Origin: Spiractinospora alimapuensis
Lineage (GTDB): Bacteria; Actinomycetota; Actinomycetes; Streptosporangiales; Streptosporangiaceae
Assembly: GCF_018437505.1 (NCBI RefSeq)
Contig: NZ_CP072467.1
Span: 4,178,010-4,242,009, forward strand
DNA: 64,000 bases
Direction of reading: 5' to 3'
Part shown: positions 4,690 to 19,489 of the stretch, piece after piece
Layout: each line of letters starts with the position of its first letter
How positions within the stretch are numbered: the first letter of the stretch is position 1
Program-made: the position numbers and the translations under genes
The notes under the pieces: model-generated
Database searches by the model: none
Told to the model about the DNA's origin: nothing
What the model saw: only the letters and a program-made list of their open reading frames with translations

Positions 4690-4774
4690 GGCAGGTTGCC
4701 CGAGTGGCCAAAGGGAACGGTCTGTAAAACCGTCGGCTCAGCCTACGTTGGTTCGAACCCAACACCTGCCACCA
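4690..4774 (+). tRNA. tRNA-Tyr (anticodon GTA)
   Basis: A class II tRNA with a long variable arm. The acceptor stem is GGCAGGT/ACCTGCC, the anticodon stem-loop is ACGGT-CTGTAAA-ACCGT, the T-loop is TTCGAAC, and CCA is encoded. It is followed at once by its own terminator. Confidence 0.97.
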
Positions 4775-4779
4775 CATCG

Positions 4780-4819
4780 AACACCCCGTGACCAGTGGTA
4801 TTGGGTCACGGGGTGTTTT
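4780..4819 (+). terminator. Intrinsic terminator after tRNA-Tyr
   Basis: A 14-bp stem beginning AACACCCCGTGACC, a short loop and the complementary arm ending GGGGTGTT are followed by TT, 6 nt after the CCA end. Confidence 0.85.
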
Positions 4820-4900
4820 CGTCGCGTCCGGGAGTGTCCGGCGGGGGCCGGGAACATACGGCGGTTCGCGGCGAATACGCGGCGAAACTCGGCGCCTCAC

Positions 4901-5470
4901 TCACCCGCAGTGGGCGCGCAGGCCCCGGTCGGCGAAGTCGACGAGCCACTCGAAGCTGTCGTCGATGTCGGTGCTCCACTGGAAGCCGTTGGTCGCCTCC
5001 AGGGTGGCGAAGCCGTGGAAGAGGCTGCGGAGCGTGCGGAGGGCGTGATCGACGTCCGGTTCGTCGATCTCGTAGCCACGGAGAACCGCCATGAACGCGC
5101 TGAGCAGGCGTTGGCTCGCCGTGGCGAGGGGATCGTCCGGGCCGGACGGCTCCATGCCGATCGTCGCGGTGTAGCGGCCGGGGTGTTGCACGACGAAGGC
5201 GCGGAAGGCGCGGGCGGCGGCGGCCAGGGCGTCTCGGCCCGCGTACCCCTGGACCGCGCCGCCGACCGCGTCGGCGGCCTGGACCAGGGCGAGGGCGGCG
5301 ATGCGCCGGTTGAGATCCTCCTGGCCACCCACGTGCTTGTACAGGGAGGGTGCCCGCACACCGACCCGTTCGGCCAGCAGTCCCATGGTGACGTTCGCGA
5401 AACCCACCTCGTCGGCGAGAGTCGCGCCGGCGGCGACCACCGCCGTCGGGTCCAGACCGGCCCTAGCCAT
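4901..5470 (-). CDS. TetR/AcrR family transcriptional regulator
   Basis: The ATG at 5470 gives 189 aa, beginning MARAGLDPTAVVAAGATLAD. The helix-turn-helix is at about residues 20-50 (VTMGLLAERVGVRAPSLYKH), typical of TetR. The C-terminal half with HPGRYTATIG and TLRSLFHGFATLE resembles the TetR_C/WHG ligand domain. The start overlaps the last codons and stop of the upstream hydrolase gene by 8 nt (ATGGCTAG), so translation is probably coupled. It most likely represses the hydrolase-regulator operon through the palindromes at 6311-6349. The effector is unknown. Confidence 0.9.
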   Translation of the reverse strand: MARAGLDPTAVVAAGATLADEVGFANVTMGLLAERVGVRAPSLYKHVGGQEDLNRRIAALALVQAADAVGGAVQGYAGRDALAAAARAFRAFVVQHPGRYTATIGMEPSGPDDPLATASQRLLSAFMAVLRGYEIDEPDVDHALRTLRSLFHGFATLEATNGFQWSTDIDDSFEWLVDFADRGLRAHCG

Positions 5471-6299
5471 GGTGGGTGTCCGATCGAAGGAAGGCGAGCA
5501 CGAGAGACACCACGTCCTCTGGGAACTGGTCGTGTGGGTAGTGGCCGGCACCGTCGATCATCTCAAGGCGACCGAGGCCGGTCGGCAGGGCGTCGACGAC
5601 CGCGGCTCCTTCCGCGTGGGGGTCGGTCCAGTCGGGATCGAGAGTGCCCATGACGACCAGGGTCGGGCTCTGGACGTTCCCGAGCTGTGCGCCCGCGTCG
5701 GTGGGCGCGCTGCGGCCCATGTTCCGAAGGGCGTTCATCCGGCCCGGCTCCCGGAGCATGGAGTCGATACGGTCGAGCCGTTCGTCCCAGTGGGCCGGAC
5801 GGTCGCCCGGATAGGCGACGTGGAGGTAGGAGCGCCAGAGGGCCACGCTGCCGAGGAGACTCGTGCCGAGCAGCCGGAGCAGGGCCCGCCTGAAGGGGCG
5901 CACTCGCAGGTCTCCGAGGTAGAGCGACTGCGCACGAGTGAACGGTGCCAGTTCGACGACCGCGGTGACCTGCGCGGGTTCCTTCGCGGCGGCGATGGTG
6001 GCGGCGCCTCCGGATATCGAGTGGCCGACCAGCACGGCCGGACCTCCGAGGTGGTGGATCACGGCGAGAAGGTCGCCGGCGATGGCGGTACGGCTCCACT
6101 CGGGCCAGTCGACGCTGGATTCACCGAATCCACGGAGGTCAACGGCCGCGACCCGGTATCCGGCGGCCACCAGTGGCGGGATCATCGCGTGGTACGCGGC
6201 ACGGCTGTCACCCATGCCGTGGGCGAGGAGGACCAGTGGGCCGTCCCCCGCCACCTCGTACGCGATCGTGCCGCCCGCGACGTTGAGGTACTCGGTCAT
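5463..6299 (-). CDS. Alpha/beta-fold hydrolase
   Basis: The 278-aa product has the full alpha/beta hydrolase layout: oxyanion HGMG near residue 27, nucleophile elbow GHSISGG (Ser about residue 94), the catalytic acid in VVMGTLDPDW, and the catalytic His in DGAGHYPHDQFPEDV. It resembles small soluble esterases or C-C hydrolases; the substrate cannot be told from sequence. A GAGGAGG ribosome-binding site precedes the ATG. It is the first gene of a two-gene operon with a TetR regulator and lies directly behind two AT-rich palindromes, so it is probably induced by a compound related to its substrate. Confidence 0.9.
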   Translation of the reverse strand: MTEYLNVAGGTIAYEVAGDGPLVLLAHGMGDSRAAYHAMIPPLVAAGYRVAAVDLRGFGESSVDWPEWSRTAIAGDLLAVIHHLGGPAVLVGHSISGGAATIAAAKEPAQVTAVVELAPFTRAQSLYLGDLRVRPFRRALLRLLGTSLLGSVALWRSYLHVAYPGDRPAHWDERLDRIDSMLREPGRMNALRNMGRSAPTDAGAQLGNVQSPTLVVMGTLDPDWTDPHAEGAAVVDALPTGLGRLEMIDGAGHYPHDQFPEDVVSLVLAFLRSDTHHG

Positions 6300-6310
6300 G
6301 AATCCTCCTC

Positions 6311-6349
6311 TAGCTAATGTTCATAGCTACAAGCTAATCTCATTAGCTT
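6311..6349 (-). promoter_or_regulatory. Two adjacent inverted repeats, likely TetR operators
   Basis: TAGCTA-N7-TAGCTA at 6311-6329 is followed after one base by AAGCTAAT-CTC-ATTAGCTT at 6331-6349. Both contain the core AGCTA and lie 12-50 nt upstream of the hydrolase ATG. The AT content contrasts sharply with the flanks. The spacing suits two TetR dimers; the link to the neighbouring TetR gene is inference. Confidence 0.75.
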
Positions 6350-6448
6350 TAGGTGTCAAATGCCCTCTGAGCAGGGGCAATCGACATGTTCAGACCGAGT
6401 GGGTCCGACCGTTCGACGGTGCGGGAACGGGAGGACGGGGGCGCGGTC

Positions 6449-7834
6449 CTATCCGGCCGCCGGGATCGGGTGGTTGGCGCGGAGCCGTTCGTGGGGGTCG
6501 GTTCGGGCCTTCACGTGGGTGAGACGCTGGTAGTCGTCGGCCGAGTAGCCCTCCCGGACCTGGTCCGGGGTCAGGAACCCGTAGCTGAAGTTCAGGCCGC
6601 GGCCCAGGTGGTGACGCCGAAACGGCTCGGTGAGTTCGGTGCGTAGGGTGTGGGTCGCCTCTTCCACACTCGGGTCGACCAGGTTCAGGACGGTCAGTGA
6701 GTGGGTGGCCGCGCGGTGGCCCACCGCGTTGGGGACCTCCGGAGTTCGGGCGAGGCCGCCGCCGAGGTGCCGCAGCGAAATGACCGTCAGCGCCGGTGCG
6801 GAGGTGCCGGAACGCCCCGGCAGTGCGTCCAGGGCGTCGGTGTCCAACTCCGAGACCAGCAGGTTCTCCGACGCGTAGGCGTGAGGCTCGGTCGGCTCGT
6901 CGAACACCGATCCGGACGCGGAGAAGGGCAGCTCCCGGAGTGTGTCTATGACGACGGGGCCGAGGCCACGAAGCGGCCGAACGAGATCCTCCCCGTCCTG
7001 CGGTGAGCCGAGCCACACCGCCTGCACCTGCGCGACGTGGCGCCCACGCAACACCTCGGGGAGAGCGGGGAGGTCAGGCATCGGCATCATCGTGACCCCC
7101 GAGGTCATCCCGTCGGGCAGCGTGGCGGTCCACTCCCGCCACCCGGCCAGCACGTGGGGGACCTGGGCGACGTCGAAGTAGAGCGAACCCCCGTAGATAC
7201 GGCTGATCGGGAAGAGGTCGATCTCCATCTCGGTGACGATCCCGAAGTTCCCCCCGCCGCCGCGCACCGCCCAGAAGAGGTCGGACTCGTGGTCGGGGGA
7301 CACGTGCACCGATCGGCCGTCGGGGGTCACGAGGTCGAGCCCGCGGACGTGGTCCGCGGCGTAGCCGTACTGTCGTGCGGCGAGGCTGAGACCACCACCG
7401 AGGGTGTAGGACACCGCTCCCACCGACGGCAGACTGCCCGACAGCGGCGCCAGGCCGTGAGGAGCCGCCGCGTCGATCACGTCCTGCCACGTCGCGCCGG
7501 CCTGGAGCGTCGCGGTGCGGGTGTCCGGGCGCACCCGTACCCCGTTCAGCCTCCCCGTCGTGACCAGGACACCTCCGGTGAGCGGCGTGCCGAGACCGTG
7601 TCCGGTGGCTTGGACCGCGATGGTGGAGTCGAAGGTGGACGCCAACTCCACGCCAGCACGGACGTCCGGCTCTCCGGCCGCGACGATCACCACGTCGGGC
7701 CGGTGCGTCGCGCGCCGCTGGAACCCCGAGCGGGCGTCGTCGAAGGCGGAGGTCTCGGGCGTGTGGACGCCGCCCAGGACGCGGGGTCGGAGGGAGTTGG
7801 CTGCGGCGATGAGATTCACGTGAGGTGCGGTCAT
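6449..7834 (-). CDS. FAD-binding oxidoreductase, berberine-bridge-enzyme type
   Basis: With the ATG at 7834 the product is 461 aa. An N-terminal PCMH-type FAD domain carries ATGHGLGTPLTGG, whose His may bind FAD covalently, plus LGGGLSLAARQYG and VRGGGGNFGIVTEMEIDLFPI. The C-terminus NFSYGFLTPDQVREGYSADDYQ... is BBE-like. The Cys that gives a second covalent flavin link in many relatives is not seen: the segment reads SGSLPSVGAVSYTLGGG. Such enzymes oxidise alcohols, sugars or alkaloid-like compounds. It is divergent from the WYL regulator, with a large palindrome between them. Confidence 0.88.
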   Translation of the reverse strand: MTAPHVNLIAAANSLRPRVLGGVHTPETSAFDDARSGFQRRATHRPDVVIVAAGEPDVRAGVELASTFDSTIAVQATGHGLGTPLTGGVLVTTGRLNGVRVRPDTRTATLQAGATWQDVIDAAAPHGLAPLSGSLPSVGAVSYTLGGGLSLAARQYGYAADHVRGLDLVTPDGRSVHVSPDHESDLFWAVRGGGGNFGIVTEMEIDLFPISRIYGGSLYFDVAQVPHVLAGWREWTATLPDGMTSGVTMMPMPDLPALPEVLRGRHVAQVQAVWLGSPQDGEDLVRPLRGLGPVVIDTLRELPFSASGSVFDEPTEPHAYASENLLVSELDTDALDALPGRSGTSAPALTVISLRHLGGGLARTPEVPNAVGHRAATHSLTVLNLVDPSVEEATHTLRTELTEPFRRHHLGRGLNFSYGFLTPDQVREGYSADDYQRLTHVKARTDPHERLRANHPIPAAG

Positions 7835-7849
7835 GACCGTCACCGTAGG

Positions 7850-7882
7850 ACGTCTTGCGGCCACATCCTGGCCGCAACACGT
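7850..7882. promoter_or_regulatory. 33-bp palindrome in divergent promoter region, likely operator
   Basis: Arms ACGT-N-TTGCGGCC and GGCCGCAA-N-ACGT are separated by 7 nt, with 12 of 13 arm positions complementary. It fills the middle of the 62-bp gap between the oxidoreductase start (7834) and the WYL regulator start (7897). It is placed to let one protein control both genes. Confidence 0.75.
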
Positions 7883-7896
7883 GGCAGCCTGAGGTC

Positions 7897-8994
7897 ATGT
7901 CCGAGAGTTCGACGCGGAGCGAGATGCCAGGACGGATACTCCGTCTGTTGTCCCTCCTCCAGAACGGGCGTGTCTGGTCCGGCGCGCAGCTCAGCGACCG
8001 ACTCGACGCGAGCCCCCGCACGGTGCGCCGGGACGTCGATCGTCTCCGTGCCTTGGACTATCCCGTGGAGGCGACGACCGGAACGGGCGGCGGGTACCGA
8101 CTCGCCGCGGGGGAGAGGATGCCCCCGCTGCAGCTCGACGACGAGGAGGTGGTCGCGATCGCGGTCGCCCTCGTCACGGTGGGCAGCAGCAACGTGGCCC
8201 GGGTGAGCGAGAGCGCGACCCGGGCGCTCGCCACCTTGGGTCAGGTCCTGCCCCCGCGACTGAGACCGCGGGTCGACGCCCTCGCGCGTACGGCGTCCGC
8301 GGTGCCGCACCGGTCCTTCGGCCCACCGGTCGACCCCCCGCTCCTGGCGGCGCTCGCTCGAAGCTGCCGGGACACCGAGGGCCTCCGATTCGACTACAGC
8401 GACCGCGACGGGAGGGAGACCCGCCGCCGAGTGGAACCCCACCACCTGGTGGCGATGCGCGGGCACTGGTACCTGCTGGCCTTCGATCTCGACCGCTCCG
8501 ACTGGCGTGTGTTCCGCGCGGACCGGCTCTCAAGCCTGTTCCCGACCGGGCGGCGCTTCACCCCGCGCGACCTTCCCGAGGTGGACCCCACGACCGTCGT
8601 CGAGCGGGCCTTCGCCACCGCGCGCTACGCCCACACGGCCTGGATGGAGGTGGCGCTCCCGGCGGAGCACGTGCGAACCCATCTCCTCGCCCCGCCCCTC
8701 GGCGAGATCCAGGAACGCGGGCCCGGGACGTGCGGGGTCCGCGTCTCCGCGGAGTCGCCCGACCTCGTGACCCAGTACGTCGCCGCCGTCGCGGCGCTGG
8801 GCGCGGACTTCTCACTGTGCGCGACCGACGAGGTGGAGGCGAGAGTGCGCGGTGTGGGCCGTCGCCTCACGGATCCGCCGCGACCCCCGCACGACCCGGC
8901 CGAGGACGGCGGGGCCGCCGCGGACCACCGCCCCCGCCGCGGACGGCCCCCGGCCGACGCCGCCGACGCCTCGCCGCACGCTCCGCCGGACTGA
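7897..8994 (+). CDS. HTH/WYL-domain transcriptional regulator
   Basis: The ATG at 7897 gives 365 aa. Residues about 10-60 form a DeoR/HTH_11-type winged helix (LSDRLDASPRTVRRDVDRLR, then a YPVEATTGTGGGYRL wing). The WYL domain includes VEPHHLVAMRGHWYLLAFD and FRADRLSSL. A WCX-like C-terminal part ends near RVRGVGRRL. The last 40 or so residues are a Pro/Asp/Arg-rich tail whose DNA overlaps the end of the convergent whiB gene by 128 bp. It probably regulates the divergent oxidoreductase and itself via the palindrome at 7850-7882. The ligand is unknown. Confidence 0.88.
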   Translation: MSESSTRSEMPGRILRLLSLLQNGRVWSGAQLSDRLDASPRTVRRDVDRLRALDYPVEATTGTGGGYRLAAGERMPPLQLDDEEVVAIAVALVTVGSSNVARVSESATRALATLGQVLPPRLRPRVDALARTASAVPHRSFGPPVDPPLLAALARSCRDTEGLRFDYSDRDGRETRRRVEPHHLVAMRGHWYLLAFDLDRSDWRVFRADRLSSLFPTGRRFTPRDLPEVDPTTVVERAFATARYAHTAWMEVALPAEHVRTHLLAPPLGEIQERGPGTCGVRVSAESPDLVTQYVAAVAALGADFSLCATDEVEARVRGVGRRLTDPPRPPHDPAEDGGAAADHRPRRGRPPADAADASPHAPPD

Positions 8995-9223
8995 GGCCGC
9001 CCCAGATACCGTGCGCCTCCCGCTGGGCCAGCGCGTAGGCCAGACACCCCGGCCGCGCCGGACACCGACGACAGATCCGCTTCGCTCGCGCCTCCCGCTC
9101 CTTACGCTCCGTGGGTAACTCGCCCGGGCTGCCGTAGAACAGGGCCAGTTCCTGCCCAACACAGGCGGCGTAATCCCACCACGCCTGTCGGACCCAGGAG
9201 CCTCCACCCGTCGACGTCTCCAT
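8867..9223 (-). CDS. WhiB-family iron-sulfur transcriptional regulator
   Basis: The 118-aa product has the four WhiB cysteines (about residues 21, 51, 54 and 60: AACVG, then CRRCPARPGC) that bind a [4Fe-4S] cluster, followed by the GIWGGLSPAER turn and a basic stretch of arginines. WhiB proteins bind the primary sigma factor and act in development, redox sensing or drug response, and are confined to Actinobacteria and their phages. The C-terminus past the basic block is a Gly/Pro/Arg tail that overlaps the 3' end of the WYL gene on the other strand. The subfamily cannot be settled; no RGRP AT-hook of WhiB7 type is present. Confidence 0.92.
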   Translation of the reverse strand: METSTGGGSWVRQAWWDYAACVGQELALFYGSPGELPTERKEREARAKRICRRCPARPGCLAYALAQREAHGIWGGLSPAERAARRRRRRPGAVRGGGGGPRRPRRPRPGRAGVAADP

Positions 9224-9672
9224 CGCACCTCCACGGTGTGGCCGATGTGTCCCGCTGGTTCCAGGATGGAGCGCGACACTGCGCTTCGGCGGTTATCCAC
9301 AGCCTGTAACCCGACCGGCGCCGATCTCGGTACGCCGGGCGATCGGGGTCCACGCCTCCGGCCGGGTCGCGGCCGGACCGTCGCGGCCTCGACGGTGACT
9401 CCGGCCGCCGCACGGGTGCTGTCACGGCGGCCGGAGGCATGAGGCGCCGACGCGAACGCTGCCGCGTCTCCCTCGGTAAGCACAGTGTGACCACGTGTGC
9501 AAGGGAACCGCCGATATGCGTGCGAGAAGAGCCGGAATTCCGTGATCATAATCGGATCGAATCCAGCCCGGTTTCGAATTCGCAGCTCAGGACAGTCGCT
9601 GTGTCGGGGTGAGGGGCGTCGCTGGCGGAATCGGGGGCACAAGCCCGGCCAGAGTCCGTAGTCTGCGTAGTT
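9224..9672. other. Gene-free stretch upstream of whiB and the Wadjet-like locus
   Basis: No credible coding sequence. It holds a perfect DnaA-box-like 9-mer TTATCCACA at 9293-9301, the inverted repeat at 9399-9436, and an AT-richer segment around 9480-9600 that may contain promoters for whiB (minus) or the jet genes (plus). A possible -10 TAGTCT at 9659-9664 would start transcription about at the GTG of the next gene, giving a leaderless message; its -35 is weak. Confidence 0.5.
9399..9436. repeat. 12-bp inverted repeat with 14-nt loop
   Basis: CTCCGGCCGCCG and its perfect complement lie 175 nt upstream of the whiB start. It could be a structural or protein-binding element; the function is not apparent. 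Confidence 0.4.
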
Positions 9673-10353
9673 GTGGGCGACTCAGCGAAGCACGACGAGA
9701 CAAGCGATGCCGGCGGCATCGGTTCCGCGGTCGCGTCCGCGGCTCCCGCGTGGCGGTCTTCCCTCCTGCGTCTGGCGGCCCGTCTGGACTCCGCGTCCGA
9801 CGCCGAGGCCCACGGAATCGCGGCGGCGGCGTACTCCATGTTCCCGGCCCGCACCCTGATGGTTCGGGCCCGTGAGGCGAGCGCGCCCGTGAGCGGGGCC
9901 ACGAGCTGGTGGCGAGCACCGCGCACGGCAATCGACGTCGGAACGTCGGCGGTGGAGGCTGGCGTGGTCCCCGGCAACGACCACAGCCACCAGCGGGCCC
10001 GCCTGCGTGAGGCCGCGGAGTCCACGGCCCGATGGCGTCGCGCCGCGGCGCGGGAGATCCGCGCGGAGCTCGGCGTCCCCACCGCGAGCGCCGGAGAGAG
10101 CCACGTCCCCCTGTCCGGGGCGGCGTTCACCGTCCTGCTGGAACTGCTGGCCGCCACCTTCGGAGCCGCGGGGTTCGGCGCGACGGGTGAACGGCCCCAA
10201 CCGGGATCGGCGGGGGAGACGGCGTTGGACCTGCGTGTGCACGTGGCGGACGCGCCCGAGGCCTCGGTGACGCTGCGCGCCGCCGAGGGAGAGCTCTGTT
10301 TGGAGGGCCTGATGATCTGGGCGACGGGCTACGCGGAGCGGTCCCATGGGTGA
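9673..10353 (+). CDS. jetA: Wadjet type II JetA (DUF2397/TIGR02677), C-terminal half only
   Basis: The GTG start gives 226 aa. Segments such as AAAYSMFPARTLMVRAR, GATSWWRAPRTAIDV, RWRRAAAREIRAEL, PLSGAAFTVLLELL and the final beta-rich LDLRVHVADAPEASVTLR match the order and spacing of the C-terminal part of DUF2397 proteins as I know them; those are about 500 aa. An in-frame stop at 9610-9612 and lack of coding upstream show that the N-terminal half is absent. In Wadjet, JetA is the kleisin linking the SMC heads, and both ends are normally needed. Its end overlaps jetB by 8 nt. It may be non-functional or a reduced form. Confidence 0.7.
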   Translation: MGDSAKHDETSDAGGIGSAVASAAPAWRSSLLRLAARLDSASDAEAHGIAAAAYSMFPARTLMVRAREASAPVSGATSWWRAPRTAIDVGTSAVEAGVVPGNDHSHQRARLREAAESTARWRRAAAREIRAELGVPTASAGESHVPLSGAAFTVLLELLAATFGAAGFGATGERPQPGSAGETALDLRVHVADAPEASVTLRAAEGELCLEGLMIWATGYAERSHG

Positions 10354-11500
10354 GGGACGGGGCGGCGACATCGCCCTCACGGTGGAACGCCAGGCGGCGG
10401 CCCGGGTGCTGCTCGTCAATCCGCTGGTGCGCGCGGCGACCAGCCCGGAGGACTTCGCGGGGATCACCACCCACGCGGACTGGCTCATCCAGCGGTTCAC
10501 GGGTCTCCTGGGCTACTCGCTGACGGTGGAGGCCCAGTTCGCCCGTCTCCACAAGGGCGCCCCCATCGGTGTCGAACCCTCGGGCCTGCGGCAACGTAGC
10601 GGTTCCCCGTTCACCCCGCGCGGCTACGCCTACCTCACCGTGGCGTTGGCCGTGCTGGGAACCGGACCGGCGACGGTGTCACTCGCCGACCTCCTGTCCG
10701 AGGTGCGGGCCACCGCGATCGAAGCCGGTGTCCGTGTCGGCCCCGCGGAGCGCCTGGCGGAGCGACGTCCACTGGCCGCCGCCCTCGTCCAGCTCGCCCA
10801 GTGGGGGGTGCTGTCAGCGGAGGCGACGACGCCGGCGGATATCGGGTCGCGCGTGGAACGTGGCGCGGAGCGATCCCACGACCTGGAACTCCAGGTCGAC
10901 CACGATGTCCTGCGCGCCATCCCCGGCCCGGCCGTCGAGGAACCGGCCGCGACCGCCGCACCGGACGAGGACCCGGCGGAGCAGGAACGCACCATCGAAC
11001 TCGCCGTACGTCGCCGCCTGGTCGAGCAGGCGGTGGTGTACCGCGACGAACTCACCGAACGGCACCGCGAATGGCTGGCCCGCAACCAATGGCGCACCAT
11101 CGCCCAGTTGGGGGACTTCCTGGGGTGTGACGGCGAGATCCGTGCCGAGGGCGTCGCGCTGGTGGGCGTCAGCGACGGGCGCGCCACGGGGTTCCCCGCC
11201 GTTCCGCTGGACCGACCGGCGGTCCGGCTGGTGTCGCGGATCGCCGAGGAACTCCGTCCGAACCGGACCGCCCGGGCCACCCCCATCCCCGACGACCTCC
11301 TCGACCGGGCCCTGGCGACCATCCCCGAGCAGGGGTCCCGGACGGTCGCCCTGGAACGCCTGGCGGAGTTCGGGCTGATCGAGCGGCGCGACCCGGAGGA
11401 CACCCCGGAGTGGTCCCTGCTCGCGGCCGCGGCCCGCTTCACCCCACACCCCGCGGAAAACCCCGCGGAGCCCACCGCGGACCCGGACACCACGCAGTAA
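10346..11500 (+). CDS. jetB: Wadjet type II JetB (DUF2398/TIGR02678)
   Basis: The 384-aa product is near normal length for TIGR02678. Its start matches the family pattern: ERQAAARVLLVNPLVRA, then SPEDFAGITTHADWLIQRFTGLLGYSL, EAQFARLHK, and FTPRGYAYLTVALAVL. The second half (RRRLVEQAVVYRDELTERHREWL) is also family-like. In Wadjet complexes JetB is the small KITE-type subunit that joins JetA and JetC in a condensin-like machine that recognises and helps cleave small circular plasmids. Its ATG overlaps the end of jetA (ATGGGTGA). A 416-nt gap, unusual for this operon type, separates it from jetC. Confidence 0.85.
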   Translation: MGEGRGGDIALTVERQAAARVLLVNPLVRAATSPEDFAGITTHADWLIQRFTGLLGYSLTVEAQFARLHKGAPIGVEPSGLRQRSGSPFTPRGYAYLTVALAVLGTGPATVSLADLLSEVRATAIEAGVRVGPAERLAERRPLAAALVQLAQWGVLSAEATTPADIGSRVERGAERSHDLELQVDHDVLRAIPGPAVEEPAATAAPDEDPAEQERTIELAVRRRLVEQAVVYRDELTERHREWLARNQWRTIAQLGDFLGCDGEIRAEGVALVGVSDGRATGFPAVPLDRPAVRLVSRIAEELRPNRTARATPIPDDLLDRALATIPEQGSRTVALERLAEFGLIERRDPEDTPEWSLLAAAARFTPHPAENPAEPTADPDTTQ

Positions 11501-11807
11501 TCCCCCCGGCGAGACGTGAGGGTGTGACGCGGGGGTCCCGCGCCACACATGGCGAACAAGCGAGGCCGTCGCTCGGCCATGGAAGGAGTCCTCGTGCGTG
11601 ATGCGCGGAGTACCGTCCGCCCAGGGATGGGGGATCGGTGGACCGCCCCGGGGGCCGACGCACGCGGAGGCGGTCGTGGTCGCGGCGGGGCGCCGACGAC
11701 ACCCCTCACTGCCGTGGCCTTCCGGGCCGGCCGGAGACACCTGGGTCACGTGGGTGATCCGATGTGGGGGTTGACGCGAGGGGTCCGTCCCAGGAATGTG
11801 CACGGTA

Positions 11808-11838
11808 GGGGTGTCCCGCCCGGACAGTGGGACACCCC
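11808..11838 (+). promoter_or_regulatory. 10-bp perfect inverted repeat between jetB and jetC
   Basis: GGGGTGTCCC, an 11-nt spacer and GGGACACCCC lie 79 nt before the jetC ATG. No T tract follows, so an operator or mRNA hairpin is more likely than a terminator. A TTGACG at 11771-11776 could be a -35 of a separate jetC promoter, but no good -10 was found. The remaining part of 11501-11916 shows no coding potential. Confidence 0.5.
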
Positions 11839-11916
11839 GGCCGACGCCATCGGCGGCTCGGCGACCCCAGCCGCCCCTCACGAAGTGACCGACGTCCACA
11901 CGACGTGGGAGGACGC

Positions 11917-14900
11917 ATGACCGACGCGCCGGCAGTAGACACCTCACCCCAGGCGGCCCGATACCGCCTGAACCGGGCCGGCATCCACAACGTGTGGCAG
12001 TACGACAACCAGGTCTTCCACTTCGCCGACGGCCGACTGTTGCTGCGGGGCCGCAACGGCGCCGGCAAGTCGAAGGCGCTGGAGGTGTTGCTGCCGTTCC
12101 TGCTCGACGGCGACGCCCGCCGCCTCGACACCGCCGGCAACGGACGCACCACACTGCGCTGGCTGCTCCGGGGGGCGAAGGCCGCGACCGGCGTCGACGA
12201 CGAGGGCGTGGTCCTCGGGCACGCCTGGGTGGAGTTCGCCCGCCAGGAGGACGACGCGCCGCACCACCTCACCCTCGGCGCCGCGGTCTCCTCCGCCTCC
12301 GACGAGGAGGAGGCCCGGTGTCTCTTCTACGTCACCCCACGCCGGGTCGGGGAGGACCTCACCCTCGTCCGCGACGGCCGGCCGCTGCCCGCCGACGAGG
12401 TGCGGGCCGAGTTGGGCGAGGACAACACGTTCACCAGCCCCGCCCAGTACCGCGCCCGTGTCATGGACGAACTCTTCGGTCTGGAGGATCCGCGCCGCTA
12501 CCGGAACCTCGTCCATCTCCTGTACCGGCTGCGCCGCCCCACCATCGGTGAACGCCTCGAGGGCGGGGAACTCGCCACCGTGCTGGCCGAGGCCCTGCCC
12601 CCCACCGACGAGGTCGTCCTGGACACCGTCGGCCGCAACCTCACCGACCTCGAGGCGGCCCGGGCGCATCTCGTAGGCCTGCAGGCCACCCGGGACCACA
12701 TCGCCGAGTTCCTCGAGGACTATCGCGGCTACCTCCACGGTGTCATCCGCGGCCGAACCCGCGCCGTACGCACCCAACTCGAGGACCACACCCGCCGCAC
12801 CGACGAGGTGGAACGCCTCGCGGCCGAGCTCGCGACCCTGGTCTCCGCCGAGAGCTCGGCTCAGGAGGACCGCGACCGGGTGCGCCGCACCCGCGACACC
12901 GCCGACGGCGACGGCTCGGTGCTGGAGACCGCGGCCGAGACGGCCGAGGACCGCGACCGCCGGATGGTCATCAACGCGTTCATCCGCACCGCGCGCGCCG
13001 CCTGGCACGCCGCCGAGTACGCCCGCGCCGCGGAGGAGAACGCCCAGGACTCCCTCGCCAAGGGCGTGGCGACGCTGAACGAGCAGCTCGAGTCCCTGCA
13101 CCCCACCGCCGAGGCTCTGACCCAGGGACTGCGCGACGCCGGCCTCCCTCCCGACACCTGGGGAGAGATCCCCCAGACCGATCCCACTGTTCTCGCCCCC
13201 CGGGAAAGCACGACCGCGGTCGACCTGGAAGGACTGGAGCACGCCGTCGAGCGCGCCCCCGTCCCCGGAGTCGACGCCGGCGCCCTACGCGGACGACTCG
13301 CCCGACTCCACGACGAACTCGCGGAATGCGCGCAGCAGACCGAGGGGCGCGACACGGCCGCCGCCTCCCTGCTCGAGGTCCTCGACACCCTCGGCACCGC
13401 GCACACCACGTCCGACGCCCTGTCCGACGAGGCGGAATGGGCCGACCGTGCTCTGACCGAGGCCCACGAACGACACAAGGCCGCCGAGGAACGACTCGTG
13501 TCCGCCCGCGGCGAGTACGTCGAACGGGTCCACCAGTGGTGCGAGCGACTGCGCGGTATCGTCGTGGACCCCGAGCTCGGAACCGCGCTCGCCCCCATGA
13601 TCGACCGGATGCGCACCCGGACCGACGCCGGCCAGCTCACCCCCGACGACGAGACCGACACCGCGATCCGCGGCGTCGTCGCCCCCCACCTCGAGGACCT
13701 GCGCGACCGCCGTGACGTGGCCGTCGGGGAGGCGAGGGAGCTGCGGGTCGAACTCGACGAGCTCGCCGAGCGCCGCACCGCCCTGGAGAAGGCGAACGCG
13801 GAGATCACGGGAGAGCAGGAACACGGCCTCCCGCTCTACCAAGCCGTGGAGTTCGCCGGCGACCTCTCAGACGAGGAACAGGCGGCGATCGAGGCGGGCC
13901 TCGAGGGCAGCGGCCTGCTCACCGCCTACGTCATGCCCGACGGAAGCGTCGTCGACACCGAGGCCAACCGTCTCCTGCTCAGCCCCCGCCCACCACTCTC
14001 CGGACCCACCCTGTTCGACGTCCTGCGTCCACGGGAGCACTCAGCGGCCGGGGTCAGCGCGGCGACGATCGCCGAGCTCCTCACCTCGGTGAGCGTCGAG
14101 GGCCTTCCGCCCGAGCGGACCGGACACGGCCTCGAGCCGGGTGGCCAGGCCACGCCGGCGGCCGAGTGCGCCATCTCCGTCACGGGACACTGGCGCCTGG
14201 GAGTCCTCAGCGGCACCGGGACCAAGACAGCGCCCGAACTCGTGGGAGAACGTGCCCGCTCCGCCACCCGGGAACGCGACCTCGCCAAGCTGGACCGCAG
14301 GATCGCGATCGCCGAGGCCCTACTGGCGGAGGCCCGGGAGCGCTGCACCGGACTGGAGAACCAGACCGACGACCTGGCCACGACCCTGGCCAGCGCCCCC
14401 ACCAAGGTGGGTCTGGCCGGCGCGGCGGCGATCGCCGACCAGGCGCGCGCCGACCACGAAGCGGCACGCGAGGACGCCTCCGCCGCCGCCGAGGCCGCCC
14501 GCGTCGCACGCCAGGAGGTCCTGGAACTCACCAAACGCGTCAACACCGCGGCGGAGGAACACAGCCTGCCCGACAACGCCGGCGAACTCACCGCGACACG
14601 TAACGCCATCCACCGCGCCCGCACCCACCTCTCCACACTGCGCCGCGATCTCGCCGTCGTCGCGCGGCGCGTGGAGGACTACCGCGCCGCGGTCGGCGCC
14701 TGGGAGGAACAACGCCGCCGCCGGATCAGCGCGGAGGACTTCCGGACCCAGGCGATCCAGGAAATGATCCAGGTGCGGCGACAGATCGAGCTCACCGAGC
14801 GCGCGCGGTCCGCCCACCCCGACCAACTCGCCCAGGCACGCGAACAGGTCCGAGAACGCGGCGCCGAGGCCGGATCCCGCCTCCCCGAACTGGAGCGCAC

Positions 14901-16179
14901 GGCGCAGCGGGCCCGGGACGAACGCGTCGCCGCCGAGGCCCGTCTGGCGATGGCCCGGGCCGAACAGGCCGAACAGGCACGACGGGTTCTCCGCGTCGGT
15001 CGGGGACTGCGTAAGGCGTTCGCGCGCCCGGACGCCGGCGTCGGACTCGACCGGCGCATGCTCACCGCGACCGGTCTGGACCGCATCGCCGGCGGCCTCC
15101 AGGCCGCGACCATCGACACCGGGGACGACGACTCCGCGGCCGACCTGGGACACCAGGTGCGCCAACTGGCGGCGTTCACGGCCGCGGTCGAGGCGGGACT
15201 CCCCGAGAGCGGCGACCCGGTCGACGACAGCGCCATCCTCCGCCGACACGACGAGCTCCAGCAACGCCTCGCCAAGGCCGGAGCGCACGCCCGCAGCCGA
15301 CTCACCGAACGCAACAGCGTCAAGCGCGTCCTCGTCGAGGCCGGACGCGACGAGTGCGACATCATCGAGTACGCCGAACGGCTGGACGCCGACATCACCG
15401 AGGCTCAGGAGACGGCCTCCCTACGCGAGGAGGAGGCGTACGAACGCCACCTCCTCGGCGAGATGGCGGGGCACCTCGGTCAGCAGATCGAGGAGTCCAA
15501 GTCCCTCGTGGCGACCATGAACGCGCTGCTCGGTAGAGTCACCACCTCCCAGGGGCTGGGGGTGCGCCTGGACTGGACCATCGCCGCCGACGCCGACGAG
15601 GACATCCGCGCCGTCGTACCGCTCCTCGAACGCCCACCGGAGCAACGCACGCGCCTGGAGACCACCCGGCTGCGTGACGCCCTCCGTCGGTGCATCGAGG
15701 CCATCCGACGTCTGGACCCCGGATCCACCCAAGGGGCCCAGCTCCGCGCGGCCCTCGACTACCGCTCCTGGTTCGACTTCACGGTGTACGTGACCGACAC
15801 CCGCAGCGGGGGAGAGGAACGTCGCCTCTCGCACCGCACCGGCCTGAGCCAGGGTGAGCAGCGCGTCGTCGCCTACCTCGTCCTCTTCGCCGCGGCGGCC
15901 GCGGAGTTCTCCGCGCTCGGCCGCCGCAGTGACCGAGCGCCACGCCTCATCCTGCTGGACGACGCGTTCGCCAAGGTCGACGAACCCACCCACGGCCGAC
16001 TCCTGGGACTGCTCAGCGAGCTCGACCTCGACTTCGTGCTGACGTCCGAACGCCTGTGGGGGTGCTTCCCCAGTGTGCCCAGCCTCGAGATCTACGAGTG
16101 CCTACGGGACCCGGAGGTCCCGGGAATCTCGACCATGCGGTTCAGCTGGGACGGAACCCGTCGCAGCTTGCAGGACTGA
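11917..16179 (+). CDS. jetC: Wadjet type II JetC, SMC/MukB-like ATPase (TIGR02680)
   Basis: The ATG at 11917 (GGGAGGA site 3 nt upstream) gives 1420 aa. The N-terminus RYRLNRAGIHNVWQYDNQVF is the family signature, followed by Walker A GRNGAGKSKA at about residues 45-54. Long Ala/Glu/Arg-rich coiled coils fill about residues 270-1250. The C-terminal head has the signature LSQGEQ (about 1310) and Walker B LILLDDAFAKVDE (about 1344). All ATPase motifs look intact. JetC is the motor subunit of the Wadjet anti-plasmid system. It follows jetB, but the JetD nuclease gene expected next is missing. Confidence 0.9.
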   Translation: MTDAPAVDTSPQAARYRLNRAGIHNVWQYDNQVFHFADGRLLLRGRNGAGKSKALEVLLPFLLDGDARRLDTAGNGRTTLRWLLRGAKAATGVDDEGVVLGHAWVEFARQEDDAPHHLTLGAAVSSASDEEEARCLFYVTPRRVGEDLTLVRDGRPLPADEVRAELGEDNTFTSPAQYRARVMDELFGLEDPRRYRNLVHLLYRLRRPTIGERLEGGELATVLAEALPPTDEVVLDTVGRNLTDLEAARAHLVGLQATRDHIAEFLEDYRGYLHGVIRGRTRAVRTQLEDHTRRTDEVERLAAELATLVSAESSAQEDRDRVRRTRDTADGDGSVLETAAETAEDRDRRMVINAFIRTARAAWHAAEYARAAEENAQDSLAKGVATLNEQLESLHPTAEALTQGLRDAGLPPDTWGEIPQTDPTVLAPRESTTAVDLEGLEHAVERAPVPGVDAGALRGRLARLHDELAECAQQTEGRDTAAASLLEVLDTLGTAHTTSDALSDEAEWADRALTEAHERHKAAEERLVSARGEYVERVHQWCERLRGIVVDPELGTALAPMIDRMRTRTDAGQLTPDDETDTAIRGVVAPHLEDLRDRRDVAVGEARELRVELDELAERRTALEKANAEITGEQEHGLPLYQAVEFAGDLSDEEQAAIEAGLEGSGLLTAYVMPDGSVVDTEANRLLLSPRPPLSGPTLFDVLRPREHSAAGVSAATIAELLTSVSVEGLPPERTGHGLEPGGQATPAAECAISVTGHWRLGVLSGTGTKTAPELVGERARSATRERDLAKLDRRIAIAEALLAEARERCTGLENQTDDLATTLASAPTKVGLAGAAAIADQARADHEAAREDASAAAEAARVARQEVLELTKRVNTAAEEHSLPDNAGELTATRNAIHRARTHLSTLRRDLAVVARRVEDYRAAVGAWEEQRRRRISAEDFRTQAIQEMIQVRRQIELTERARSAHPDQLAQAREQVRERGAEAGSRLPELERTAQRARDERVAAEARLAMARAEQAEQARRVLRVGRGLRKAFARPDAGVGLDRRMLTATGLDRIAGGLQAATIDTGDDDSAADLGHQVRQLAAFTAAVEAGLPESGDPVDDSAILRRHDELQQRLAKAGAHARSRLTERNSVKRVLVEAGRDECDIIEYAERLDADITEAQETASLREEEAYERHLLGEMAGHLGQQIEESKSLVATMNALLGRVTTSQGLGVRLDWTIAADADEDIRAVVPLLERPPEQRTRLETTRLRDALRRCIEAIRRLDPGSTQGAQLRAALDYRSWFDFTVYVTDTRSGGEERRLSHRTGLSQGEQRVVAYLVLFAAAAAEFSALGRRSDRAPRLILLDDAFAKVDEPTHGRLLGLLSELDLDFVLTSERLWGCFPSVPSLEIYECLRDPEVPGISTMRFSWDGTRRSLQD

Positions 16180-17131: not shown

Positions 17132-17170
17132 ATGAACGGGCAAACGGCTGGTTTGGACGAGGTGATCACG

Positions 17171-19252
17171 GTGTCGACCGGAGTGGAGTTCACGGTGACG
17201 CCAACGGGCGGCGTTCCGCCGGCTCGGGAGCCTTCCGTTCTGGAGCGGCTGAGTCGGTCCCCACTCGACGCTGACACACTGCAGTGGGTGGTCGCCGCCC
17301 TCGATTCCGAGGACGCGCTCTCGGCCCGCGCGCGCGGCGAGACCGTGCCCGTCCCCGCCGACGAGCCGATGGTCGAACCGGCCCCGGCGGCCGCGCAGTG
17401 CTTCCTGGGCCGCGTCGAGGTGCGTGGCTTCCGCGGGATCGGACGCTCCGCGGTCCTGGACCTGACGCCCGGGCCCGGGCTCACCGTCATCGTGGGCCGC
17501 AACGGCTCGGGGAAGTCGAGCTTCGCCGAGGCGATCGAGGCCGCTCTCACCGGCCGCAACCGGCGTTGGGACGCCATGCCCGCGGCGTGGCGGGACGGAT
17601 GGCGCAACCTGCACGTCGACGAGCAGACCGAGGTCGCGGTGGACGTGCACACCGCCGGTGTCGCGGCGCCGCTGCGCATCGCCCGCTGGTGGACCGGGGA
17701 GAGCGTCCGTTCGGCGAGGGCCGAAGTACGCCACGCGGGGGGTGAGACCGCGCCCGTCAGCAGCCTGGGCTGGGTGGGCGCGCTGGGGCGCTACCGACCC
17801 TTCCTCTCCTACGACGAGCTGGGACGCGCCGTCACCGGCCGGGCGGCGGAGCTGTACGACACGCTGACGGAGCTGCTCGGCCTCACCGACCTCGCGGAGG
17901 CGGAGAGGCGCCTGGCGAAGTTCTGTGACCGACTCAGCAAGCAGGAGAGCAGGCCGCGCCGTGAGCGCGACTACCTGCTGGAACGCCTCAACGCGTGTGC
18001 CGACCCGCGAGCACGCCGCGCGGCCGCGATGCTCCGGTCCGACTCCGTCTCCCTGGACCGACTCGCCTCGCTCGCCGCCGACGACGGCCCCGCCGACCCC
18101 AACCAACAGCGTGTACTGCGTCGCCTGCGACGCCTTTCCGTCCCCGAGCGGTCGCTGATGAGCGACGTCACCAGCGAGCTTCGGGGCGCGTCCATGGAGC
18201 TGGAGATGACCGCCGACAGCAAGGCGGCCCAGGCGCGCGGCCTGGCGGACCTGCTCCGGTCGGCCATCGACCACGCCGAGCGGCACACCGGAGTCCCCGA
18301 GTGCCCCGTCTGTGACTCGGGGATCCCGCTCGACGGGGAGTGGATGAGCCGCGCCCGCGCGGAGATCGCTCGGCTCCAACCCACCGCCGAGGCGGCCTCC
18401 TCCGCCCACGAACGCGCCGACAACGCGCGCGACCAGGCGCGTTTCCTCATCGCGCCCCGGCCGTCCTGGCTGCCCGAGCACACCGAACTCGGCCAACTGT
18501 GGGACCAGTGGAGTGCTGGCAGCCAGCTCACCGATCTCGGTGAACTCGCGCGGCACATCGACGACCTCGGACCACGGCTGCGCTCCGCCGCCGTCGCGGC
18601 GCGCAAATCCGCGACCTCCGAACTGGAGAACCCGGAGAGCGGGTGGCGCGAGGCCTCCGAACAGCTCGCCGCCTGGGTCGAGGACGCGCGCGCCGCGATG
18701 GAGTGTCGTGAGGTCCTGGGACCCGCCACGCGCGCGCTGGAGTGGCTGACCACCGCCGCTCGGGAGATTCGTGACGAACGTCTCCGTCCGCTCTCCGTGC
18801 ACACCGAACACGTCTGGCAGAACCTGCGCCAGGAACGCCGGATCGACATGGAGGCGCTGCGCCTCGTGGGCCGTGGAGCCGGGCGCCGTGTCGCGGTCGA
18901 CGTCCGCGTGGACGCGGTCCCCTCCAGCGGGGACGACGGCGGCAACGCGCCCGGGCTGCTCAGCCAGGGAGAACTACAGGCGCTGGCGCTGTCGATCTGT
19001 CTCCCGCGGACCCTGCTCGCCGGAAACCCGTTCGGTTTCCTGGTGTTGGACGACCCCGTGCAGGCGATGGACACCGAAACGGTCGAGGGGCTGGCCGGAG
19101 TCCTCGCCGAGGTCGGGCAGTACCGCCAGGTGGTGGTCTTCACACACGACACGCGGCTTCCCGACGCCCTGACCCGTGCGTCGCTGCCCGCCACCATTCG
19201 CGGCATCCACCGGGATTCGGTGTCCAACGTTGAGGTCGACTCTTCCCCGTAG
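17171..19252 (+). CDS. SbcC/RecF-like SMC-type ATPase with zinc hook
   Basis: The GTG at 17171 has a GAGG site 8 nt upstream and gives 693 aa; an ATG at 17132 is possible but lacks a site. Motifs in order: VEVRGFRGIGRSAVLDL, Walker A GRNGSGKSS (about residue 109), coiled coils with one CPVC zinc-hook pair (about 378-381), signature LSQGE (about 597), Walker B FLVLDDP (about 623) with a D-loop QAMD, and an H-loop FTHD. This is the plan of Rad50/SbcC proteins, though short. No SbcD-type nuclease lies beside it. Its place behind the jet genes suggests a DNA repair or defence role; the precise family is not known to me. Confidence 0.75.
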   Translation: MSTGVEFTVTPTGGVPPAREPSVLERLSRSPLDADTLQWVVAALDSEDALSARARGETVPVPADEPMVEPAPAAAQCFLGRVEVRGFRGIGRSAVLDLTPGPGLTVIVGRNGSGKSSFAEAIEAALTGRNRRWDAMPAAWRDGWRNLHVDEQTEVAVDVHTAGVAAPLRIARWWTGESVRSARAEVRHAGGETAPVSSLGWVGALGRYRPFLSYDELGRAVTGRAAELYDTLTELLGLTDLAEAERRLAKFCDRLSKQESRPRRERDYLLERLNACADPRARRAAAMLRSDSVSLDRLASLAADDGPADPNQQRVLRRLRRLSVPERSLMSDVTSELRGASMELEMTADSKAAQARGLADLLRSAIDHAERHTGVPECPVCDSGIPLDGEWMSRARAEIARLQPTAEAASSAHERADNARDQARFLIAPRPSWLPEHTELGQLWDQWSAGSQLTDLGELARHIDDLGPRLRSAAVAARKSATSELENPESGWREASEQLAAWVEDARAAMECREVLGPATRALEWLTTAAREIRDERLRPLSVHTEHVWQNLRQERRIDMEALRLVGRGAGRRVAVDVRVDAVPSSGDDGGNAPGLLSQGELQALALSICLPRTLLAGNPFGFLVLDDPVQAMDTETVEGLAGVLAEVGQYRQVVVFTHDTRLPDALTRASLPATIRGIHRDSVSNVEVDSSP

Positions 19253-19413: not shown

Positions 19414-19489
19414 GCCCCTTTAGCTCAGTCGGCAGAGCGTCTCCATGGTAAGGAGAAGGTCTACGGTTCGATTCCGTAAAGGGGCTCCA
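19414..19489 (+). tRNA. tRNA-Thr (anticodon GGT)
   Basis: 76 nt with the CCA encoded. The acceptor stem is GCCCCTT/AAGGGGC, the anticodon stem-loop is TCTCC-ATGGTAA-GGAGA, and the T-loop is TTCGATT. Confidence 0.97.

Follow-up and report, generated by a model that had tools for sequence, protein, structure and literature searches.

A Conserved Wadjet Type II-Like Locus with a Short JetA, a Rad50-Like ATPase and No JetD in Spiractinospora alimapuensis and Its Relatives

Introduction

DNA cleavage by Wadjet has been attributed to a JetABC motor in dimeric form (PMC12647877, excerpt), and in type I Wadjet and in MukBEF, the kleisin N-terminus joins the two motors (PMC10586767, excerpt). In PMC10586767, MksBEF of Pseudomonas aeruginosa, which has no JetD, is said to derive from JetABCD and to organize chromosomes. 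The present study concerns a Wadjet type II-like locus of the actinobacterium Spiractinospora alimapuensis. The window, i.e., the whole stretch of 64,000 nucleotides that was analyzed (NCBI RefSeq assembly GCF_018437505.1, contig NZ_CP072467.1, positions 4,178,010 to 4,242,009 of the forward strand), harbors a short jetA, jetB, and jetC, followed by the gene of a 706-residue ATPase referred to as AAA706. All coordinates are those of the window, and G and L numbers are handles for genomes and loci, respectively.

The original prediction offered two readings of the three jet genes: a decaying locus, or a reduced system resembling structural maintenance of chromosomes (SMC) complexes that has lost cleavage. 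The latter is supported. The locus is probably a domesticated, cleavage-free derivative of Wadjet type II that is vertically inherited in Nocardiopsidaceae and their kin and acts in DNA maintenance.

The Locus and Its Genes

Short jetA (9673–10353, + strand) encodes 226 amino acids (aa) that comprise only the C-terminal part of a DUF2397 kleisin. The protein aligns to Pfam DUF2397 over model positions 300–480 of 483 (57.4 bits) and to PADLOC JetA2 over positions 309–504 of 512 (E 4e-30). The predicted N-terminal truncation, its coordinates and frame, and the DUF2397 assignment all hold. The KITE-type subunit JetB (10346–11500, +; 384 aa), whose gene overlaps jetA by 8 bp, is a full-length DUF2398 protein (model positions 1–362 of 363, 195 bits), and JetC (11827–16179, +) is an SMC-like ATPase covered end to end by TIGR02680 (positions 1–1355 of 1356, 787 bits, above the cut-off), both as originally assigned. 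The best PADLOC profile for JetC is JetC2 with 1048 bits; the best JetC1 profile scores only 54 bits. Judged from the sequence, the ATG at 11917 is more likely to be the true start of jetC than the GTG at 11827.

The original prediction missed that the next gene, AAA706 (17132–19252, +), is part of the same conserved locus and that the site abuts a tRNA-Thr gene (19414–19489, +), its right boundary. AAA706 is an SMC/Rad50-like ATPase with a CPxC zinc-hook-like motif and is co-conserved with the short jetABC set.

Conservation in Relatives

A JetB search of 120 related genomes returned a match in 48 including that of the window, of which 20 others are close (E at most 1.4e-49), and the regions around 40 JetB matches were compared. 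The closest set shares one gene order: short jetA, jetB, jetC, and an ATPase of ~700 aa, which is AAA706 in the window. When 250 genomes of the family were searched with AAA706, 75 had a match and 54 carried its close form (E below 1e-200). These 54 genomes bear 18 genus labels; named carriers include Nocardiopsis, Thermobifida, Streptomonospora, Marinactinospora, Murinocardiopsis, Actinorugispora, and Marinitenerispora. The truncation point is nearly constant: a short JetA starting at DUF2397 model position 288–300 of 483 is found in 53 of the 54, and G060 is the sole close-form genome with only a full-length DUF2397. In a class-wide sample of 296 genomes, DUF2397 occurs in 65, and the 17 with a copy starting at 288–300 all belong to the family of the window; in other families, DUF2397 occurs in 41 genomes and none has such a copy, in a sample that scored at most five candidates per genome and in which weak short copies could be missed.

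The position of the locus is equally constant. The tRNA-Thr gene lies 56–453 bp downstream of AAA706 in all 54 loci and is followed by tRNA-Met, with three of these loci showing no Jet genes on the stretch examined. Within the genus to which G046 belongs, each of 40 genomes encodes JetC, and 35 of them do so in a single frame of at least 1400 aa. Plasmid-borne close relatives were considered and rejected, as all 21 matching plasmid records show less than 60% identity.

Selection was gauged by the ratio of nonsynonymous to synonymous substitution rates (dN/dS) in 11 chosen pairs of close relatives. It amounts to 0.06–0.39 for short JetA, 0.18–0.39 for JetB, 0.11–0.29 for JetC, and 0.10–0.21 for AAA706, the values for jetB and jetC having been proposed as a check in the original prediction. 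The window copy was assessed by its distance to other carriers relative to theirs among themselves; this ratio is 1.64 for JetA, 1.41 for JetB, 1.43 for JetC, and 1.39 for AAA706, within the range of eleven flanking genes (0.96–1.95), and thus no acceleration is seen. The ATPase motifs are conserved as well. Among rows with letters at the site, the Walker A motif of JetC matches GRNGAGKSKALE exactly or differs from it by one residue in 48 of 49, and that of AAA706 is GRNGSGKS in 54 of 54; the JetC signature and Walker B are kept in 51 of 52 rows. The best JetC frame of L167 has no ATPase motifs, and JetC is cut by contig ends in L133 and L138.

In Nocardiopsis loci including L134, L141, L158, L160, and L168, short JetA is extended at its C-terminus by a low-complexity segment. 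In four of the five named loci, this segment terminates in a peptide containing TGPI, which may be a binding motif.

A Start Signal of the Short jetA

The start regions were compared in 54 rows that represent 51 distinct jetA open reading frames. All 54 show a TANNNT box ~6–9 nt before the conserved start, typically as GGTCTYTAGTCTGCTGAGTT followed directly by GTG. In the window, the −10-like box TAGTCT (9659–9664), an 8-nt spacer, and the GTG together occupy 9659–9675 (+). Under a strict start rule, TANNNT is present in 48 of 48 rows versus 1 of 1440 overlapping background 12-mers, and the six rows outside the rule also display the box, either at the start (L127, L129, and L160) or at an internal start (L163, L047, and L040). 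When 12 of the 54 genomes were searched for the pattern, the jetA site was recovered in each, along with a single further match, compared with two matches for the backward control. The full-length jetA of Allonocardiopsis has no TANNNT box. Such box-to-start spacing marks leaderless genes in actinobacteria, which suggests that the short jetA may be read from its own leaderless-type start.

By eye, an inverted repeat (CTGAGT..ACTCAG, spacing 8 or 6) can be discerned over the jetA start codon in many relatives, and imperfectly in the window (9659–9690), as a possible operator.

Absence of JetD and of the JetA N-Terminus

The window genome is a single contig of 5.86 Mb, and the predicted lack of the DUF2399 nuclease JetD was borne out both at the locus and elsewhere in it. 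DUF2399 gives no match above the cut-off and none at E ≤ 0.001 in this genome, with two chance-level matches at E 0.14 and 0.56; DUF3323 gives none above the cut-off and three below it (best E 3.6e-4), and the type-I JetD_C domain is not found. The best of the sub-threshold DUF3323 matches (G000:C1:442463), the only one followed, was dropped because it gives no signal with the JetD profile; the frame that holds it is presumably ArfB-like.

Remnants at the locus were sought in three intervals (upstream of jetA, from jetB to jetC, and downstream of jetC) using JetD and JetA profiles, each derived from three relatives' sequences, with all filters off. The profiles yielded no significant match (best E 0.89), and the flanks suggested for checking in the original prediction thus hold nothing significant, such that JetD remnants are rejected; the sole match of the window's own Jet proteins to the gaps is the start of JetC itself. 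As the only DUF2397 match in the genome at E ≤ 1e-5 is the short copy, no separate JetA N-terminus was found. A gene of ~170 aa upstream of the short jetA of relatives, which by eye we take to be lipoprotein-like, was rejected as its source: two copies scanned have no Pfam or PADLOC match, and the gene also precedes the full-length jetA of Allonocardiopsis.

The original prediction had raised the occurrence of a full jetA or a jetD at this site in relatives. The former exists in Allonocardiopsis (L052/L165); the latter was not detected in any of the 52 loci with JetC, i.e., 51 of the short-JetA type and that of Allonocardiopsis.

Structure of the Short JetA

The AlphaFold model of short JetA (mean predicted local distance difference test score 77) consists of two helices, a low-confidence linker at residues 58–93, a long helix, and a winged-helix-like domain. 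Residues 383–494 of JetA in PDB 9qe1 can be aligned with the C-terminal part of the model (Z 6.4, root-mean-square deviation 4.6, 109 residues). Foldseek places 9qe0/9qe1 on top with E of about 0.009, and no match reaches E ≤ 0.001. Since the structural matches are modest, the JetA assignment leans on the sequence profile.

The full JetA profile aligns to 9qe0_E along its length, and from this alignment, the part lost from short JetA corresponds to about residues 1–312 of the 9qe0/9qe1 protein. That type II motors dimerize like those of type I is suggested here only by the title of the structure entry, "JetABC dimer". On this analogy, the complex with short JetA is predicted not to form a double motor.

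AAA706 and Its Distant Relatives

AAA706 combines ABC ATPase motifs with a CxxC hook-like motif in a predicted Rad50/SMC-like fold. Both features of Rad50/SbcC, the ATPase motifs and the zinc-hook cysteines, are thus present; the two cysteines are invariant in 27 aligned rows, and L124 lacks the CPxC pattern itself. No nuclease domain was recognized in family-profile scans. In the window, no gene lies between AAA706 and tRNA-Thr, and no scan for an Mre11 domain covered the wider neighbors. Partial matches to PADLOC defense ATPases such as mad3 and LmuB are seen for AAA706 and for the three distant relatives scanned; with respect to Lamassu, the LmuB matches are partial only, and no search aimed at LmuA or LmuC was made. 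In 45 of 51 loci, no more than 350 bp separate the jetC stop from the first AAA706 residue that aligns; the distance is larger in six.

The distant relatives, found in Pseudonocardia, Nocardia, and metagenome-assembled genomes of Dormiibacterota, are ~800 aa long, share about 37–43% identity with AAA706 over most of its length, and have no Jet genes nearby. Their 40 loci, two of which (L114 and L174) are the same contig, show a C-terminal tail of 133–146 aa in 39 and a downstream gene of ~120 aa in 39, as detected with a partner profile built from 16 of the loci. The close forms have tails of 0–13 aa in 46 of 49 proteins and of 38–72 aa in three, and the small partner gene is absent from every close-form locus searched. 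Five partner proteins scanned have no Pfam family above the cut-off and one sub-threshold DUF4145 match. One guess is that the partner might serve as an effector.

Loci L171–L202 (without L187) and L113–L121 appear as a two-gene module of the tailed ~800-aa ATPase and the ~120-aa partner, which bears a conserved histidine-rich motif; this module is a candidate uncharacterized system. In G026 (L113:10586–11197), an AAA706 relative that has the partner gene and no tail lies close to a homologue of the lipoprotein-like gene found upstream of short jetA in relatives.

Origin and Order of Events

In a JetC tree of 48 rows, built by a quick method and with long branches flagged elsewhere in the tree, the 27 short-JetA rows form one clade (support 100). 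This clade groups with Allonocardiopsis and L050 (support 100), the order of the three not being fixed. L050 encodes a full JetA and JetD, with AAA706 not on its contig, whereas Allonocardiopsis has a full JetA at the site, no JetD, and an inverted AAA706. The latter arrangement implies that the loss of JetD probably preceded the truncation of JetA. By parsimony, JetD loss and the joining with AAA706, in a mutual order that is not settled, would have been followed by JetA truncation.

In ten other genera of the family, what we take to be murB-like and hadAB-like genes are grouped with the two tRNA genes (in L209, tRNA-Thr is about 10 kb away), and no Jet or AAA706 gene is present in 4–16 kb at the site. 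In two of the ten, the gene that in many relatives precedes short jetA, as it does in 13 of 23 loci, stands directly before tRNA-Thr (110 and ~540 bp). On the basis of these empty sites, the jet/AAA706 set looks like an insert at the tRNA-Thr gene that subsequently became fixed.

Relative to other carriers, the left flank of the window (4700–9650) has been replaced; it lacks what we take to be rodlin-like and lipoprotein-like genes and holds, besides a WYL-domain regulator, a presumed FAD-linked oxidase-like gene and a WhiB gene (8867–9223, −). A second JetD-less Wadjet type II group with full jetA-jetB-jetC was also noted (L054, L055, L057, L058, and L059). The L055 set adjoins a superoxide dismutase gene, and the others adjoin a gene of like length; L053, which is akin to this group, keeps a divergent JetD (153 bits), and a DUF2399 search at E ≤ 0.001 finds nothing in G054 or G056.

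Proposed Function and Alternative Explanations

Conservation of the set points to a useful function, and vertical inheritance at a fixed place favors, with moderate confidence, DNA maintenance over defense. In the proposed mechanism, a Wadjet type II ancestor would have lost the nuclease JetD, after which JetA was presumably reduced to its C-terminal winged-helix domain, preceded by two helices and a flexible linker. JetC and JetB, which stay whole with conserved ATPase motifs, would then form with the JetA C-terminus an ATP-driven unit that engages DNA via the JetC heads without cutting it. Lacking the kleisin N-terminus, two such motors would not assemble into a dimer of dimers. The unit probably acts with AAA706 to maintain the chromosome or DNA, not to cleave plasmids; MksBEF of P. 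aeruginosa, which likewise has no JetD, offers a precedent.

Several observations weigh against this proposal. The putative maintenance role is deduced only from the pattern of inheritance, and the dN/dS values stem from relatives, with the window copy outside the pairs. The window JetA departs at the nearly invariant positions 27, 29, 37, and 38, and the structural match is modest (VIA-align Z 6.4 to 9qe1_E, where Z < 8 can reflect a common arrangement). In the window, 953 bp lie between jetC and the first AAA706 residue that aligns, which makes co-transcription of the two genes there doubtful. Five of the 40 JetC frames mentioned above are shorter than 1400 aa, at least two of them (G309 and G314) being cut by contig ends, and in L145, JetC is split over two frames. 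In L167 (Nocardiopsis eucommiae), JetC extends over three frames, AAA706 lacks its N-terminus, and a 1.7-kb gap separates the two; this carrier is possibly losing the locus, or its sequence is at fault. Finally, N. endophytica L126 has no Jet gene in the 9.9 kb before AAA706, and its JetC lies near the end of another contig.

A more specific form of the proposal, which we advance only tentatively, is a DNA machine of two ATPases. Here, a Wadjet type II core with a C-terminal-only kleisin would operate as a single motor with the Rad50-like ATPase, both being derived from defense-type systems, stripped of their putative effectors, and fixed as core genes.

The best surviving alternative, though a rather doubtful one, is that the locus still serves defense, with foreign DNA sensed by JetABC and the effector role of JetD taken over by AAA706 or a host nuclease. 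The partial matches to mad3 and LmuB are in line with this, as are the tail and small partner gene of the distant relatives. However, AAA706 itself has neither these nor a recognized nuclease domain, and the locus is fixed in place and present throughout one genus (40 of 40 genomes). Defense loci are typically patchy in distribution.

It is somewhat unlikely that AAA706 is an independent neighbor and short JetABC works alone, an explanation compatible with the other readings. The distant relatives without Jet genes, the separation in N. endophytica L126, and the inverted orientation in Allonocardiopsis would fit such independence, but a Jet kleisin is encoded in all 54 close-form genomes, and AAA706 closely follows jetC in most loci.

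Supply of JetD and full JetA in trans by other Wadjet loci is very improbable. Many close-form genomes could provide them, given that DUF2399 occurs at other places in 28 of 54 at E ≤ 0.001 (27 above the cut-off) and a further DUF2397 copy in 44. However, the window genome and eight others (G010, G018, G023, G040, G042, G043, G230, and G288) have no DUF2399 at this threshold and the short JetA as their only DUF2397, and the locus is thus kept where no JetD is detected.

Decay, with jetB and jetC frames surviving by chance, can be dismissed almost entirely: the missing JetD and JetA N-terminus and the broken frames of L167 would agree with it, but the near-identical truncation, gene order, start signal, and ATPase motifs shared across many genera, the low dN/dS in relatives, and the unaccelerated window copy all contradict this reading of the original prediction.

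The locus may represent a natural experiment in which an SMC immune system turns into something else, complete with a living intermediate that has a full kleisin and no nuclease. It raises the question of whether an SMC motor still functions when the kleisin half connecting two motors is missing. It also means that the proposed route by which a defense SMC becomes a housekeeping one can be tested in bacteria that are culturable, the relatives of Thermobifida and Nocardiopsis. It also serves as a warning that profile-based annotation may label such loci as broken Wadjet.

Comparison with Known Systems

A search limited to open-licence papers returned none on this locus type, which is weak evidence of novelty. 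The closest described system is Wadjet type II (JetABCD; PDB 9qe0/9qe1 from Neobacillus vireti); the locus has homologues of its JetB, of its JetC, and of the C-terminal portion of its JetA. JetB (DUF2398) and JetC (TIGR02680) are present in the locus; in contrast to Wadjet type II, it has no JetD nuclease (DUF3323-DUF2399), its JetA lacks about the first 310 residues of the full-length DUF2397 protein, and a Rad50-like ATPase gene follows jetC. With two defining features missing, the locus is a relative of Wadjet type II and not a member.

MksBEF, the kleisin of which is intact, is type I/MukB-like, whereas the present locus has no SMC subunit of the type I/MukB family and combines type II proteins with a cut kleisin and an extra ATPase. 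Without MksG, MksBEF likewise constitutes an SMC–kleisin–KITE unit devoid of a nuclease (PMC10586767, excerpt).

AAA706 shares an ABC ATPase head, a coiled coil, and the CxxC hook-like motif with Rad50/SbcC, SMC heads, and Lamassu LmuB. Its sequence similarity to these proteins is limited to head segments, and its setting differs in that JetC precedes it and, in the window, tRNA-Thr is the next gene. Relative to the module of the ~800-aa ATPase and the ~120-aa partner, AAA706 retains the homologous ATPase and is found without tail and partner, alongside a Wadjet type II-derived core.

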